Source: Alphaproteobacteria bacterium
GTDB taxonomy: Bacteria > Pseudomonadota > Alphaproteobacteria > Sphingomonadales > Sphingomonadaceae
DNA: 63,103 bases
Assembly: GCA_019239415.1 (NCBI GenBank)
Contig: JAFAZW010000067.1
Span: 1-63,103 of the forward strand
Direction of reading: 5' to 3'
Both the position numbers and the translations under genes were made by a program. A model generated the notes under the pieces. The model was not told the origin of the DNA. It did no database searches and saw nothing but the letters and a program-made list of their open reading frames with translations. This document shows, piece by piece, positions 8,896 to 20,011 of the stretch (position 1 is its first letter; every line of letters begins with the position of its first letter).

Positions 8896-9654
8896 TTGAG
8901 CGCACCGTTCCGCTTTCCCCGCTTCTTCGTGACCAGCCCGGCCCCGTGCCCCTATCTCGCGGGCAAGACCGAGCGGAAGGTGTTCACGGAGCTGACGGGC
9001 GTCCATGCGAGCGAGCTCAACGACGCGCTCGGCCGGATCGGTTTCCGCCGCAGCCAGGGCGTCGCCTACCGGCCCAGCTGCATGGACTGCACGGCCTGCG
9101 TTTCGGTCCGCGTCGTCGCCTCCGAGTTCCAGCCGAGCGCGACCCAGAAGAGGATGCTGAAGCGCCACGCCGACCTCGAGGTCACCGCCTGCAAGCCGTG
9201 GGCGACCGAGGAGCAATATGCGCTGCTGCGCCGCTACCTGAAGAGCCGCCACCCCGACGGCGGCATGGTCGGCATGGATGAATCCGATTTCGCCGACATG
9301 ATCGAGCAGAGCCCGGTCCGCACCTACGTGATCGAATATCGCGAGCCGGCGCGCGACGGCCGGCAAGGCCGCCTCGTCGGCGCCTGCCTCACCGACCAGC
9401 AGGGTGACGGCCTGTCGATGATCTACAGCTTCTTCGAGCCGGACGACGAGGCGCGGCCCGGCCTCGGCACCTACATCATCCTCGATCACATCGTGCGCGC
9501 CGGGAAGGCCGGCTTGCCCTACGTCTACCTAGGCTATTGGGTCGAGAACTCCCGCCGCATGGCCTACAAGGCCCGCTTCCGCCCGCTGGAGCGCCTCGGC
9601 CCCAACGGCTGGTACCGCTTCGAGCCCGACCAGCGCGAGCTGCCCTTGGGCTGA
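8896..9654 (+). CDS. bpt: Aspartate/glutamate leucyltransferase or arginyltransferase (Bpt/Ate family)
   Basis: The 252-residue protein transfers an amino acid from aminoacyl-tRNA to the N-terminus of proteins, marking them for degradation by the N-degron pathway. The N-terminal domain has the cysteine pattern of the ATE family: Cys18 (PCPYL) and Cys62, Cys65 and Cys68 ([13 protein letters not shown]). The C-terminal GNAT-like half carries SMIYSFF and [20 protein letters not shown]. Bacterial Bpt enzymes add leucine to Asp/Glu ends; which amino acid this one uses is not decided by sequence alone. It starts at TTG with a GGAG upstream. It probably forms its own transcription unit after ilvA. 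Confidence 0.9.
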
Positions 9655-9740
9655 CTTTCCTGCCTCCCCCTCGCGTGGCGATGGCGAGGCAAATCCTCTG
9701 AAACTTCCTCTTAATCCCTAATCGCTTAGACACCCTGCTC

Positions 9741-11741
9741 ATGGGGTGGGTGAAGGAGCGCTGGCGCACGATCGTCGATGCCGGCGAGGCGGAGACGCCG
9801 GCCGGCCGCGCGCTCCTCCAGCAGCGTTACGCCGCGCTCCAGCGCCAGATCCCGCTCCTCTACACGGTCGCGCTCACCAACGTGCTCGGTCTCGCCGCCG
9901 CCACCGGCGGGCGCTCGGCGACCTTCTTCAAGGCTTCGGCCGTCCTCGTTCTCCTCGTCCTCCTCCGCCTCGCCCACTGGGTCCGCGCCCGCAATCGCGT
10001 GCTGCCGCCGGAGAAGATCCTCGTCGAGCTGCAGAAGACGTGGGTCTATGCGCTCGTCATCAGCGTCGGCTTCTGTGCCTACGCGCTCATCCTTCTCGAC
10101 GGCGCCGGGCCGGAGGACCATTTCTACGTCATCCTGTTCGGAAGCCTCGCCGCGGTCGGCTGCGCGTACGGCATTTCGAGCTACGGCGGCGCGGCGCGCC
10201 TGCCGCTTCTCTTCCTCGGCTACCCCATCGCCGCCCGGCTCGTCTTCTACCGCGACGCCGCGCATGTCGGCATGGGCATCAGCGTCGGCATGGTGATGCT
10301 GCTCATCCTGCGCCTGCTCGGCATGCACAATCGCGGGTTCCGCAGGCTCGTCGAAGCGCAGGTCGAGACCGAGGCCGAGCGCCGCCGCGCCCGCCGCGCC
10401 GAGCGTGCCGCCAAGGCCGAGAAGGAGCGGGCAACGATCGTCGCCGACACCGATTCCCTGACCGGCCTCGCCAACCGGCGCGCCTTCCTCCGCGAGCTCA
10501 GCGTCCGCGCCGGCCGCGTCCGGCGGCGCGGCGGCGCTTTCGCGCTCGCCGTCATCGACCTCGACGGCTTCAAGCCGATCAACGACACGTTCGGCCATGC
10601 CGCCGGCGACATCGTCCTCCAGCAAGTCGGCGCCCGGTTGGCCGCAGCGACAGGGGCGGGCGCACTCGTTGCCCGCACCGGCGGCGACGAGTTCGCGCTG
10701 GCGCTGCCGGGGATCTCCGATCGCGGCGCCGCCGAGGAGGCCGGGCTCGCCGCCTGCGCCGCGCTCAAGCCGCCGTTCGCAGTCGACGGCCGCGAGTTCC
10801 GCATCTCCGGCTGCTGCGGCCTCACCTTGCTGCGCAAGGGCGATTGCGAGGTCGAGGAGGCGCTGATGCGCGCCGACACCGCCCTGTATCGCGCCAAGGG
10901 CAATGGCCGCGCCGGCGTCGCCGTCTTCACGCCGGAAATGGGGGCGATGCACCGCCGCCGCAGCCTCGTCGAGCAGGCGCTGCGCGACAGCGACACGCAG
11001 GATTCGATCGGCCTCGTCTACCAGCCGGTCCTCGACCTCGCGACCGGCGAGCTGCGCGCGCTCGAGGCGCTGGCGCGCTGGGACCATCCGCAGCTCGGGC
11101 GCGTGCCGCCGGACCAGTTCGTCACCGTCGCCGAGCAGATCAACGTCATCGGCGAGCTGAGCGACCGGCTCCTCGCCAAGGCCGCGCGCGAGGCGCGGGG
11201 CTGGGCCGGGTCGGTGCGCCTGTCGTTCAATGTCAGCGCGATCGAGCTGTGCACCGCGCGCTCGTCGCAGCGCATCCTCGCCGTCGCGCGCGCGGAGGGC
11301 CTGCCGGCGGATCGCCTGCAGATCGAGCTGACCGAGACGGCCTTGCTCGTCGATTTCGAGGCGGCGCGCCGCAACCTCGGCGAGTTGCGCGATGCGGGCG
11401 CCCGCATCGTCCTCGACGATTTCGGCGCCGGCCACGCCTCGATTTCCTACCTGCGCGAAATGCCGTTCGACGGGGTCAAGATCGACGGGTCGCTGGTCGC
11501 CCCCATCGCCCAGTCGCTGCGCGCCCAGCGGCTCCTGAAGGGGGTGCTCGACCTCTGCGCCTCGCTCGGCATGCCGTGCGTCGCCGAGCAGATCGAGACC
11601 GAGGAGCAGGCGGCCCTGCTGCGCGGCCTCGGCTGCCGCGACGGCCAGGGCTTCCACCTCTCGCCCCCGCTCCATGCGGCGGCCGCGGCCGCGCTGGCGG
11701 CACCCAAGGTAGTCCCGATCGGCCGCGCGGCGGCGGCCTGA
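9741..11741 (+). CDS. Membrane-anchored GGDEF-EAL protein (diguanylate cyclase/phosphodiesterase)
   Basis: The 666-residue protein has about six N-terminal membrane helices (roughly residues 30-200), a short charged linker (EAERRRARRAERAAKAEKER), a GGDEF domain and an EAL domain. The active-site motif TGGDEFALALP (near 314) is intact, so cyclic-di-GMP synthesis is possible. The EAL motif (ALEALARW, near 441), DDFGAGHASISYLREMPFD and the terminal GCRDGQGFHLSPPL are also kept, so hydrolysis is possible. Which activity dominates cannot be predicted. No PAS or other soluble sensor domain is present, so the membrane part is the likely sensor. The stop is 24 bases from that of the convergent minus-strand frame. 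Confidence 0.92.
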   Translation: MGWVKERWRTIVDAGEAETPAGRALLQQRYAALQRQIPLLYTVALTNVLGLAAATGGRSATFFKASAVLVLLVLLRLAHWVRARNRVLPPEKILVELQKTWVYALVISVGFCAYALILLDGAGPEDHFYVILFGSLAAVGCAYGISSYGGAARLPLLFLGYPIAARLVFYRDAAHVGMGISVGMVMLLILRLLGMHNRGFRRLVEAQVETEAERRRARRAERAAKAEKERATIVADTDSLTGLANRRAFLRELSVRAGRVRRRGGAFALAVIDLDGFKPINDTFGHAAGDIVLQQVGARLAAATGAGALVARTGGDEFALALPGISDRGAAEEAGLAACAALKPPFAVDGREFRISGCCGLTLLRKGDCEVEEALMRADTALYRAKGNGRAGVAVFTPEMGAMHRRRSLVEQALRDSDTQDSIGLVYQPVLDLATGELRALEALARWDHPQLGRVPPDQFVTVAEQINVIGELSDRLLAKAAREARGWAGSVRLSFNVSAIELCTARSSQRILAVARAEGLPADRLQIELTETALLVDFEAARRNLGELRDAGARIVLDDFGAGHASISYLREMPFDGVKIDGSLVAPIAQSLRAQRLLKGVLDLCASLGMPCVAEQIETEEQAALLRGLGCRDGQGFHLSPPLHAAAAAALAAPKVVPIGRAAAA

Positions 11742-14264: not shown

Positions 14265-14273
14265 GGAGGAGGG
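14265..14273 (+). promoter_or_regulatory. Strong ribosome binding site of the small peptide gene
   Basis: GGAGGAGGG lies three bases before the ATG at 14277. It is among the strongest Shine-Dalgarno matches in the window and argues that the 87-codon frame is genuinely translated. Confidence 0.55.
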
Positions 14274-14276
14274 CCT

Positions 14277-14540
14277 ATGTCCGACCATTCCAGAATCACC
14301 ATCGACGAGATCGTCCATGCCGCGGGGGCTGGCGCGTTGCGGGCGCTCGAAGCCCGTAGCGGCGGCGGCGGCGGCGGAGCCGGCGGAGGGGGCGACGCGG
14401 TGAGCATCGAAAAGCTCGTCCAGTCCGGCTTCGGCGTTCGGTTCGAGATCTGGGCCGGCGGCTGGCCGGGCCCGTGGGGCCCGGGTCCGCTCGGCGGCCT
14501 CGGCACCCTCGGCACGAAGGCCGGCGGACAGCAGGGATGA
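14277..14540 (+). CDS. Small Gly/Trp-rich protein, possible modified-peptide precursor, function unknown
   Basis: The product is 87 residues. Residues 1-27 (MSDHSRITIDEIVHAAGAGA and LRALEAR) form a charged amphipathic helix. Residues 29-39 are a glycine run interrupted by one Ala, then SIEKLVQSGFGVRFEIW, and then a tail rich in Gly, Pro and Trp (Trp59, Trp63, Trp67) ending in polar residues. There is no signal peptide. The helix - Gly linker - aromatic tail layout resembles a leader plus core of a ribosomally made peptide, but no modification enzyme adjoins it. It overlaps the next gene by ATGA, so both are coexpressed. It could equally be a small partner subunit of the Cys-rich protein. Confidence 0.6.
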   Translation: MSDHSRITIDEIVHAAGAGALRALEARSGGGGGGAGGGGDAVSIEKLVQSGFGVRFEIWAGGWPGPWGPGPLGGLGTLGTKAGGQQG

Positions 14541-15007
14541 GCGGCGGCGGCCGCGGCCGTCCCTCGGCCGCGCCGCTCGCCTGTCCGAGCGCCGATCCGG
14601 ACTGGGACGACGCCCGGCTTCTCGGGGTCGTACTCGGCACGGCCGAGGAGCCGCAAACCTGGTTCACCGGCGTCCGTCCCGTCGACCCGGCGATGCTGGC
14701 CGCGGCCGCGCCCGCCGCGCCGGCGGAGGTGTTCCGCTTCACCGCGCGTTGCCGCGAGGGCGCCTGCGCCCAGTTCGTCGGCGGACGCTGCCGGGTCGGA
14801 GAGGCGGTGGCCGCGCACCTGCCTCCGGCGGAAGCGCAGGCGCTGCCGCAATGCGGCCTTCGCCCCGCCTGCCGCTGGTGGCACGAGCAGGGCCCCGCCG
14901 CCTGCCGCCGCTGCCCGGCCGTGGTGACCCAGGACAGCCTCGTCCGCGGCGCCTATACGGAGGCGCTTCGGGGACAAGGGGACCCGGAGAGGGTCACGGC
15001 CGAATAG
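14537..15007 (+). CDS. Cysteine-rich protein of unknown function, possible metal or Fe-S binder
   Basis: The 156-residue protein starts at the ATG overlapping the stop of the peptide gene. It has eight cysteines: 16, 72, 77, 85, 106, 112, 123 and 126. They are grouped as CREGACAQFVGGRC and, later, CGLRPACRWWHEQGPAACRRC, a spacing that suggests one or two metal or Fe-S sites. There is no signal peptide, so a cytoplasmic location is expected. From memory, similar small proteins with the CRWW...C..CP..VT end occur in cyanobacteria and some proteobacteria, sometimes loosely named nitrogen fixation protein; I could not check this. The gene ends 2 bases from the convergent glycosyltransferase gene. 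Confidence 0.65.
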   Translation: MSGGGRGRPSAAPLACPSADPDWDDARLLGVVLGTAEEPQTWFTGVRPVDPAMLAAAAPAAPAEVFRFTARCREGACAQFVGGRCRVGEAVAAHLPPAEAQALPQCGLRPACRWWHEQGPAACRRCPAVVTQDSLVRGAYTEALRGQGDPERVTAE

Positions 15008-18361: not shown

Positions 18362-20011
18362 TTGGAAATCTGCGAATCGGGAGCGGGCGAGAGCGGCCTG
18401 CGGCCGCTGTCGGTCTGCCTCATCAACCCGCGGTTCGAGCCTTCTTACTGGGGCTACGACCATGTCCTGCCGTTCGTCGGGGGCGACAAGAGGTGCTGGA
18501 CGGTCACGGGAGCGCTGCCGGCGCTCGCCGCGCTGGCGCCGCCGCATTGCACGGTCGAGCTGGTCGACGAGAATGTCGAGGAGATCGATTTCGCGCGGCT
18601 GGCGCGGTTCGACGTGATCGGCGTCACCGGCATGGTCGTCCAGGCCGAGCGGATGAAGGCCATACTCGCGCGGCTGCGCGAGACGGAAGCCGTCGTGGTC
18701 GTCGGCGGGCCTTACGTCTCGGTCGCCGAATCGCAGTTCGCGGCGCTCGCCGACGTGCGCTTCATCGGCGAGGCCGAGGAGACCTGGCCGGCGTTTCTCG
18801 AGGCTCTCGCCCGCCGGGAGCCGGTGCCGGAGCGGTACGAGCAGGCGGAGCGGACCGACATGGCGCGGGTGCCGCCGCCGCGATACGACCTCCTCAAGGC
18901 CGATCGCTACATGATGGCGTCGCTGCAATTCTCGCGCGGCTGCCCGTTCCGCTGCGAATTTTGCGACATCATCACCATCTTCGGACGCCGGCCGCGGCTG
19001 AAGACGCCGGAGCAGATGCTCGCGGAATTCGAGGCGGTGCGGGTCGCGGGGTTCCGGACCTGCTTCCTCGTCGACGACAATTTCATCGGCAACAAGGCGA
19101 AGGCGAAGGAACTGCTTCACGCGCTGATCGGGTGGCAGAAGGCGAATGGCTACCCGCTCGATATCACCACCGAGGCGAGCATCGACCTCGCCGACGACGC
19201 CGAGATGATCGATCTGATGCGGGAGGCGAACATCCTCTCCGTGTTCATCGGCATCGAGACGCCCCGCGCCGCGTCGCTCAACGAGGTGCGCAAGATCCAG
19301 AATGTCCGCGGCGACCCGATGATCGCCAGGCTGCGCCGCATCCGGGATGGTGGCCTGCAGATCGCCGCCGGCTTCATCGTCGGCTTCGACAATGACGACG
19401 AAGCGATCTTCGACGAGCAGGCCGCCTTCATCGAGGAGGCGGCGATCGCCTTCGCGCTCGTGGCCGTGCTGACGCCGATCCCGACGACGCCGCTCTACGA
19501 CCGGCTGGTGCGCGAGGGGCGGCTCGACTTCGCCGACCACGAGGTGATCTTCCGCCCCAAAGGCATGAGCCGCGAGGCGCTGAAGCGCGGCTATGCCGCG
19601 CTGATGCGGCGACTGTACGAGCCGGACGCGTTCCTCGCGCGGGCCCTCGGCGGCTATGCCGGCGCCCATGGCTATCGCGCGGCCCGACGCCGGCACGCCG
19701 AGGCGACCGGCCGACGTCCGGGCCCGCTCGCCCGCGCGCGTGCCGCCGTCGGTGCGGTCCGGCTGGCGCGTCGCCTCGTCCGGACGGTGCGCGCGGAGGG
19801 GTTGGGGCGGCTCGGCGCCGCTTATTTCGGCGCCTGGTGGCGGCTTAACCGGCCGCTCGGGCGCGCGCGGATGCCGCTCCCGGACTTCGTCGGCCTCTGC
19901 CTCTACCACTGGCATTTCCACCGCATCGCCAATGGCGCGCGTCGCGGCGCGTTCGGCGCCGTGCTGCCGGCCGACCTGCCGCTGTTCGACCAAGACGCGC
20001 GCGCGGCCTGA
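18362..20011 (+). CDS. B12-binding radical SAM protein with DUF4070 C-terminus
   Basis: The 549-residue protein has a Rossmann-like cobalamin-binding N-terminus (LSVCLINPRFEPSYWGYD, then VGGPYVSVAE; no free DxHxxG). It continues with a radical SAM barrel whose 4Fe-4S cysteines are Cys194, Cys198 and Cys201 (RGCPFRCEFCD), and a C-terminal DUF4070 region (GMSREALKRGYAALMRRLYEP). Members include HpnP-like hopanoid methylases and many of unknown substrate, so methylation or another radical reaction on a lipid or large substrate is possible. The residues after about 450 are Arg-rich and variable. The start is a TTG; no ATG fits. It is divergent from the amino-sugar operon across 251 bases with no other feature. 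Confidence 0.85.
   Translation: MEICESGAGESGLRPLSVCLINPRFEPSYWGYDHVLPFVGGDKRCWTVTGALPALAALAPPHCTVELVDENVEEIDFARLARFDVIGVTGMVVQAERMKAILARLRETEAVVVVGGPYVSVAESQFAALADVRFIGEAEETWPAFLEALARREPVPERYEQAERTDMARVPPPRYDLLKADRYMMASLQFSRGCPFRCEFCDIITIFGRRPRLKTPEQMLAEFEAVRVAGFRTCFLVDDNFIGNKAKAKELLHALIGWQKANGYPLDITTEASIDLADDAEMIDLMREANILSVFIGIETPRAASLNEVRKIQNVRGDPMIARLRRIRDGGLQIAAGFIVGFDNDDEAIFDEQAAFIEEAAIAFALVAVLTPIPTTPLYDRLVREGRLDFADHEVIFRPKGMSREALKRGYAALMRRLYEPDAFLARALGGYAGAHGYRAARRRHAEATGRRPGPLARARAAVGAVRLARRLVRTVRAEGLGRLGAAYFGAWWRLNRPLGRARMPLPDFVGLCLYHWHFHRIANGARRGAFGAVLPADLPLFDQDARAA

Follow-up and report, generated by a model that had tools for sequence, protein, structure and literature searches.

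We describe a pair of genes, encoding a small peptide and an eight-cysteine protein (Cys protein below), in a 63,103-nucleotide stretch of alphaproteobacterial DNA that was analysed whole and that we call the window. The pairing is more than chance, because the two-gene layout recurs in distant genomes and because the N-terminus of the peptide beats 1,000 shuffled sequences, narrowly. Relatives are scattered over several phyla, which suggests an undescribed peptide-making system, and comparison of their sequences suggests that in some of its lineages the peptide keeps its head and its partner protein but exchanges its tail. On balance, and only a little beyond an even chance, we favour reading the pair as a precursor peptide with a maturation or carrier protein that is guided by the leader and probably binds metal. 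The features of the pair are as follows.

14265..14269, + strand: GGAGG ribosome-binding site of the peptide gene (from the sequence)
14277..14540, + strand: small peptide gene, proposed precursor, 87 aa (from the sequence; relatives adjoin the Cys gene in genomes G020, G007 and G1578)
14292..14363, + strand: proposed leader, residues about 6-29, with a helix at 9-29 (leave-one-out profile test; AlphaFold)
14358..14396, + strand: glycine-rich linker, residues about 28-40 (comparison with the two closest relatives)
14430..14537, + strand: proposed core, a Trp/Pro/Gly-rich tail predicted to be disordered (AlphaFold; IWAG...GP segment)
14537..14540, + strand: ATGA overlap of the two genes, probably coupling their translation (from the sequence)
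14537..15007, + strand: eight-cysteine protein, 156 aa, proposed leader-guided and probably metal-binding partner (from the sequence; AlphaFold)

The peptide gene starts with the ATG at 14277, and the strong ribosome site and ATGA overlap named in the initial annotation are both present at the positions listed. The same 4-nt overlap recurs in six further loci, with start codons that we picked ourselves. Third-position G+C is 0.84 in the peptide gene, 0.88 in the Cys gene and 0.91 in glmS, the upstream neighbour on the same strand, and falls to 0.54 in the 168 bases separating glmS from the peptide gene when these are scored as coding. The downstream neighbour, a family-2 glycosyltransferase gene, lies on the opposite strand; flanked in this way, the pair therefore stands alone. 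A single copy of the Cys gene was found in its own genome, a 3.49-Mb assembly of 103 contigs in which the window is contig C20.

The cysteines of the window protein are C16, C72, C77, C85, C106, C112, C123 and C126. Eight had been counted from the sequence and placed in two groups; the count holds, and the grouping is one alone, then three, then four. Across 37 aligned members, R67, C72, C77, C85, C106, R109, C112, W114, C123 and C126 are invariant, and C16 is conserved in more than 90% (the L017 row is cut short at the C16 end). Another 15 loci lie outside this alignment, and 12 of them keep all eight cysteines; the exceptions are L020, which lacks C85 (C16 is not covered), L098, which is truncated, and L052, whose frame is broken. 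With seven of eight invariant among the 37 members, these cysteines could serve as metal or Fe-S ligands, and the protein probably binds Zn or an Fe-S cluster. AlphaFold gives a compact model from a 29-sequence alignment (pLDDT 82.1, pTM 0.73), for which Foldseek and VIA-align returned no fold match in the PDB. A sequence profile search of the PDB gave two matches, with E values of 1.6 and 2.1, and none when a larger alignment was used.

The proposal that neither protein belongs to a standard family agrees with searches of Pfam, NCBIfam, PHROGs and PADLOC (six proteins for PADLOC), which gave no meaningful match; the best in Pfam, wHTH-HSP90_Na-assoc, is noise (E 1.4). Two identities tried for the Cys protein were rejected as noise, a Zn-ribbon, with model matches in 3 of the 37 members (best E 0.01), and DUF6083, matched by one member only (E 0.005). 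No publication among the matches listed described the pair in its title or the opening of its abstract. The Cys family is undescribed in the databases and literature listings that we searched.

Cys-gene relatives are patchily distributed. They were found in 3 of 60 relatives, 3 of 26 genomes of the genus, 13 of 397 of the family, 4 of 385 of the class and 7 of 398 of the phylum, as well as in 12 of 295 genomes of family f19, 9 of 199 of f9 and 2 of 199 of f16. These samples overlap and include the window's own genome wherever it was searched, and the counts are lower bounds because the large samples were scored on no more than 10 to 20 first-look candidates per genome. Further relatives occur in five named genome records (three Nitrosomonas, Cognatazoarcus and a betaproteobacterium) and in nine plasmid records (three Agrobacterium, three Streptomyces, Nostoc, Spirosoma and Polymorphobacter). 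One relative also sits on an 11-kb scaffold, unverified and labelled as phage, that comes from human faecal samples. Three scans of a set of viral contigs gave no relative, and the peptide of G007 used as a query matched nothing among plasmids. Altogether we compiled 52 loci, the window included, from four phyla.

Adjacency had been set as one test of the pair, and the relatives bear it out: a small gene adjoins or is fused to the Cys gene in 48 of the 52 loci, with peptides assigned partly by eye and five loci weak (L019, with an 83-aa ORF downstream, L033, L020, L055 and L052, with its broken frame). The gap between the two genes is at most 21 nt in 27 of 30 measured pairs; the gap of -7 at L055 is weak, as are the 45-aa Streptomyces partners at L020 and L055. 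The peptide gene precedes the Cys gene in most loci and follows it in L030, L090, L091, L092, L093 and L094. No adjacent peptide was found at L072, L073, L074 or L098. The Cys genes of the first three (L072:8774-9193, L073:8862-9284 and L074:8940-9362) are diverged, keep all eight cysteines despite having no peptide neighbour, and have neighbours matching those of L032, where a peptide is present.

The partner peptides are highly diverse. Mean column identity over 33 partner peptides is 17%, and the Streptomyces, Spirosoma and RFVVDLGD partners (the last found in f19, f16, g973 and part of f9) have no recognisable sequence relation to the window peptide. A group that includes the window peptide and extends beyond its family, which we call group A, shares an N-terminal helix. 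In a leave-one-out test, all 18 group-A peptides scored above every shuffle, L071 narrowly (15.4 versus 14.9 bits), with some training rows being close kin of the peptide scored. A model built without all four sphingomonads gave the window peptide 10.0 bits, against 9.1 for the best of 1,000 shuffles. When the group-A alignment was searched against four sphingomonad genomes it gave one clear match in each, always beside the Cys gene, these four peptides being already part of the searching model.

Double-glycine leaders are present in L004-L008, L016 and L090-L094, and as GA in L030; Nitrosomonas and six sphingomonads have leaders of this type. The group-A model placed five of seven sphingomonad double-glycine peptides above all 1,000 shuffles, whereas for the other two, L093 and L090a, 9 and 2 shuffles scored as high. 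A model made from those seven placed L005 and L006 above all shuffles and L004 nearly so (1 of 1,000). It failed on the window peptide, whose score was reached by 130 of 1,000 shuffles, and on L089 (43), L029 (22), L015 (11) and L054 (10). Of the RFVVDLGD type, L031, L032, L051 and L075 were scored with the group-A model, the g973 peptides being left out, and they were borderline at best, so that the model did not recognise this type. At a Nostoc locus within an NHLP/TOMM/Nif11 neighbourhood, a leader-like helix and the Cys domain are joined in one protein (L014:11707-12408); the fused helix scores 15.5 bits with the leader model, the best shuffle 5.1.

The layout read from the window peptide at the outset, a helix, a glycine linker and a Trp/Pro/Gly tail, is present. 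Modelled alone by AlphaFold with 18 sequences, the peptide has a confident helix at residues 9-29 (pLDDT by tens 77/91/81 in the helix region) and is mostly disordered elsewhere (mean pLDDT 59.2). Its leader helix is that of group A. Its tail is partly conserved in the only two close relatives available for comparison, with an IWAG...GP segment also present in L089 and L054; its linker stretch is longer than in these two closest relatives. By eye, a canonical double-glycine site is absent from the window peptide, and the genes adjoining the window pair include no exporter.

The replacement of cores beside constant leaders is evident in close double-glycine relatives. Between the Nitrosomonas loci L006 and L008, 39 of 47 leader residues are identical, 13 of 30 in the core and 142 of 144 in the Cys protein; between L007 and L008 the figures are 44/50, 9/30 and 135/144, and between L006 and L007 the core is conserved as well (31/34). 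The Nitrosomonas DNA is nearly identical through the leader, breaks at the double-glycine region and resumes near-identity at the start codon of the Cys gene. Two sphingomonads of one genus (L092 and L093) repeat this pattern, with 42/45 in the leader, 15/37 in the core and 137/149 in the Cys protein, and their DNA identity drops from 36-37 to 16-24 per block of 40 at the putative cleavage site. At L090 (reverse strand, 9400-10176 in its own coordinates) the Cys gene is followed by two tandem double-glycine precursors with related leaders (23/42) and different cores (13/34).

The expectation of a conserved N-terminus and a variable C-terminus thus held in the closest double-glycine pairs (L006/L008, L007/L008 and L092/L093), where it matches the contrast of ribosomally synthesized and post-translationally modified peptides (RiPPs). 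This contrast is not evident in more distant double-glycine pairs: leader and core identities are 22/50 and 13/31 for L006 versus L004, 23/50 and 14/29 for L005 versus L004, and 17/44 and 15/30 for L092 versus L030. In genus g787 of f9, conservation favours the N-terminal part over the tail in five of six pairs, L068 and L069 being nearly equal. The RFVVDLGD type diverges more evenly: within f19 the N-terminal half is the better conserved one in 18 of 21 pairs, with a lead of no more than about 26 points. The long f19 and f16-type peptides behave much like this group, with identities in the two halves of 30/53 and 23/55, 24/55 and 23/55, and 26/54 and 21/54 for long f19 peptides. The idea of a leader and core with a partner is partly supported, by adjacency and core replacement among relatives, and is weakened by this other peptide type, which many alphaproteobacterial relatives carry and which lacks the double-glycine break.

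Export genes accompany some of the pairs. Genes for a C39 transporter and HlyD flank the pair in L004, L006, L007 and L008, and NHLP export operons lie near it in Nostoc (L014) and Spirosoma (L016). Three Nitrosomonas loci have a second tiny double-glycine ORF of 39-47 aa between the Cys gene and hlyD (L006:6617-6736, L008:6617-6736 and L007:6644-6787). We searched 25 pair-bearing genomes for C39, leaving G1468 (truncated Cys gene, no C39) out of the comparison, and found it in all six double-glycine sphingomonads versus 6 of 18 others (Fisher p 0.014, ignoring kinship); within the family only, the figures are 6/6 versus 3/7 (p 0.07, again ignoring kinship). The domain is common, being present in 8 of 14 control genomes, and none of the six sphingomonad C39 genes lies beside the pair. 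C39 was found in none of eight RFVVDLGD-type genomes tested, none of three tested f19 genomes with long group-A peptides, and not in G1578, a relative of the window type. The window genome has five C39 domains, all on other contigs and none adjoining the pair, and a regular-expression search for double-glycine ORFs near them gave chance-looking frames only.

No recurring modifying enzyme was seen near the pair among 42 loci in the 45 gene clusters listed, the neighbourhoods of L089-L098 being probed with 15 proteins only; nor did the loci compared share any constant neighbours. Seven f19 loci have an FAD-dependent oxidoreductase gene no more than about 3 kb away from the pair (L033, L045, L046, L047, L049, L050 and L052), five of which also have an aldo-keto reductase nearby, and GH25 occurs near six f19 and f9 loci. 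These enzymes are lineage-limited; we do not count them as parts of the system.

We propose that the first gene would give a ribosomal precursor with an N-terminal helical leader (about residues 6-29), a glycine linker and a disordered Trp/Pro/Gly core. The compact Cys protein would recognize the leader helix and act on, carry or protect the core, probably through bound Zn or Fe-S, with gene coupling ensuring that both products are made together. In double-glycine relatives, a C39 ABC transporter may then cut and export the peptide. Adjacency, the common helix, the conserved cysteines and the exchange of cores between close double-glycine relatives can be read directly from the sequences; leader binding, metal binding, modification, cleavage and export are inferred.

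One rival is a bacteriocin with its immunity protein: the peptide would be a toxin of double-glycine type that carries no modification, and the Cys protein would protect the producer. A small coupled gene behind that of the toxin is the classic bacteriocin order, and the C39 and HlyD genes adjoining the pair in L004 and L006-L008, the further tiny double-glycine ORFs and faint matches to bacteriocin models for a few of the 33 peptides (best E 0.0066) would all fit. However, a core-specific immunity protein should change with its core, and the near-identity of the Cys proteins of L006 and L008 across a replaced core counts against immunity, as do the reversed gene order in six sphingomonads and the 12 pair-bearing genomes in which C39 was not found (G1468 again left out). 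We hold this explanation to be decidedly improbable. Core-specific immunity does not easily explain a Cys protein that stays constant next to exchangeable cores, whereas action through the leader fits, and for this reason we prefer a precursor with a leader-guided partner. The same swapping of cores beside a constant partner, together with double-glycine leaders and exporter linkage, speaks against a mobile toxin-antitoxin unit, in which one product would be toxic and the other would neutralize it. The two-gene layout, the patchy spread through the family, the plasmid copies and the lack of constant neighbours seen are compatible with such a unit, yet no known toxin or antitoxin family was matched in Pfam, NCBIfam or PADLOC, and we regard it as the least probable of the explanations considered, and very improbable.

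A more serious rival is an intracellular two-subunit complex, in which the small protein folds on, regulates or completes the Cys protein and the double-glycine versions are derived. Our preferred reading is weakest in the window type, which has no canonical cleavage site, and in the RFVVDLGD-type partner, which could be a folded small protein. This partner diverges fairly evenly and occurs in genomes where C39 was not found (0 of 8). The long f19 peptides likewise diverge fairly evenly, and the Nostoc fusion also speaks for a complex. Such a complex accounts poorly for the exchange of cores next to an unchanged leader between close relatives, for a window peptide predicted mostly disordered when modelled alone and for partners as diverse as those aligned here, and we consider it unlikely overall. 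Returning to the precursor with a leader-guided partner, a bolder version is that the pairs represent a new class of ribosomal peptide, with the eight-cysteine metalloprotein as its sole constant maturation factor, at least three kinds of precursor (window type, double-glycine type and RFVVDLGD type) in four phyla, and cores exchanged as cassettes in some lineages. This we offer tentatively, as a possibility that we doubt more than we believe.

Comparison with known systems places the pair near several of them. With NHLP and Nif11 RiPP precursors (PMC2887384) the pairs share a conserved leader, with a Gly-Gly end in one subset, a core that is hypervariable between close relatives, and linked C39 ABC/HlyD exporters; NHLP export operons also lie near the Nostoc and Spirosoma members of the Cys family. 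The pairs differ in their short leaders of about 40-50 aa, in the absence of Gly-Gly and an exporter from many members, and in the constant partner, which is an eight-Cys protein and not LanM, TOMM or radical SAM. Additionally, no NHLP or Nif11 model matched the window peptide, and neither was among the families listed for the 33 peptides. Class II (double-glycine) bacteriocins and microcins share the Gly-Gly leader, C39 and HlyD with the Nitrosomonas and Cognatazoarcus loci; here, however, the partner is constant while the core varies, and the window peptide lacks the site. The Cys protein resembles RiPP recognition proteins such as PqqD/RRE, and partner-dependent systems such as methanobactin, in being a small partner with putative leader binding, and differs in being Cys-rich and in having no PDB fold or meaningful PDB profile match.

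A protein for which our searches gave no family, fold match or description nevertheless stands beside peptide genes in four phyla. It could be a hook for a hidden class of bacterial peptides, many of whose genes are too small for annotation. Inspection by eye showed no modifiable residue that the cores share, which raises the question of how an eight-Cys protein of 120-170 aa acts on peptides without an obvious one. Elsewhere in the window, a B12-type radical SAM protein is encoded at 18362-20011, about 3.3 kb downstream of the pair, with all NCBIfam matches below cut-off and nothing seen that ties it to the pair, and an arginyltransferase-family protein at 8896-9654 (NCBIfam PRK01305, above cut-off).
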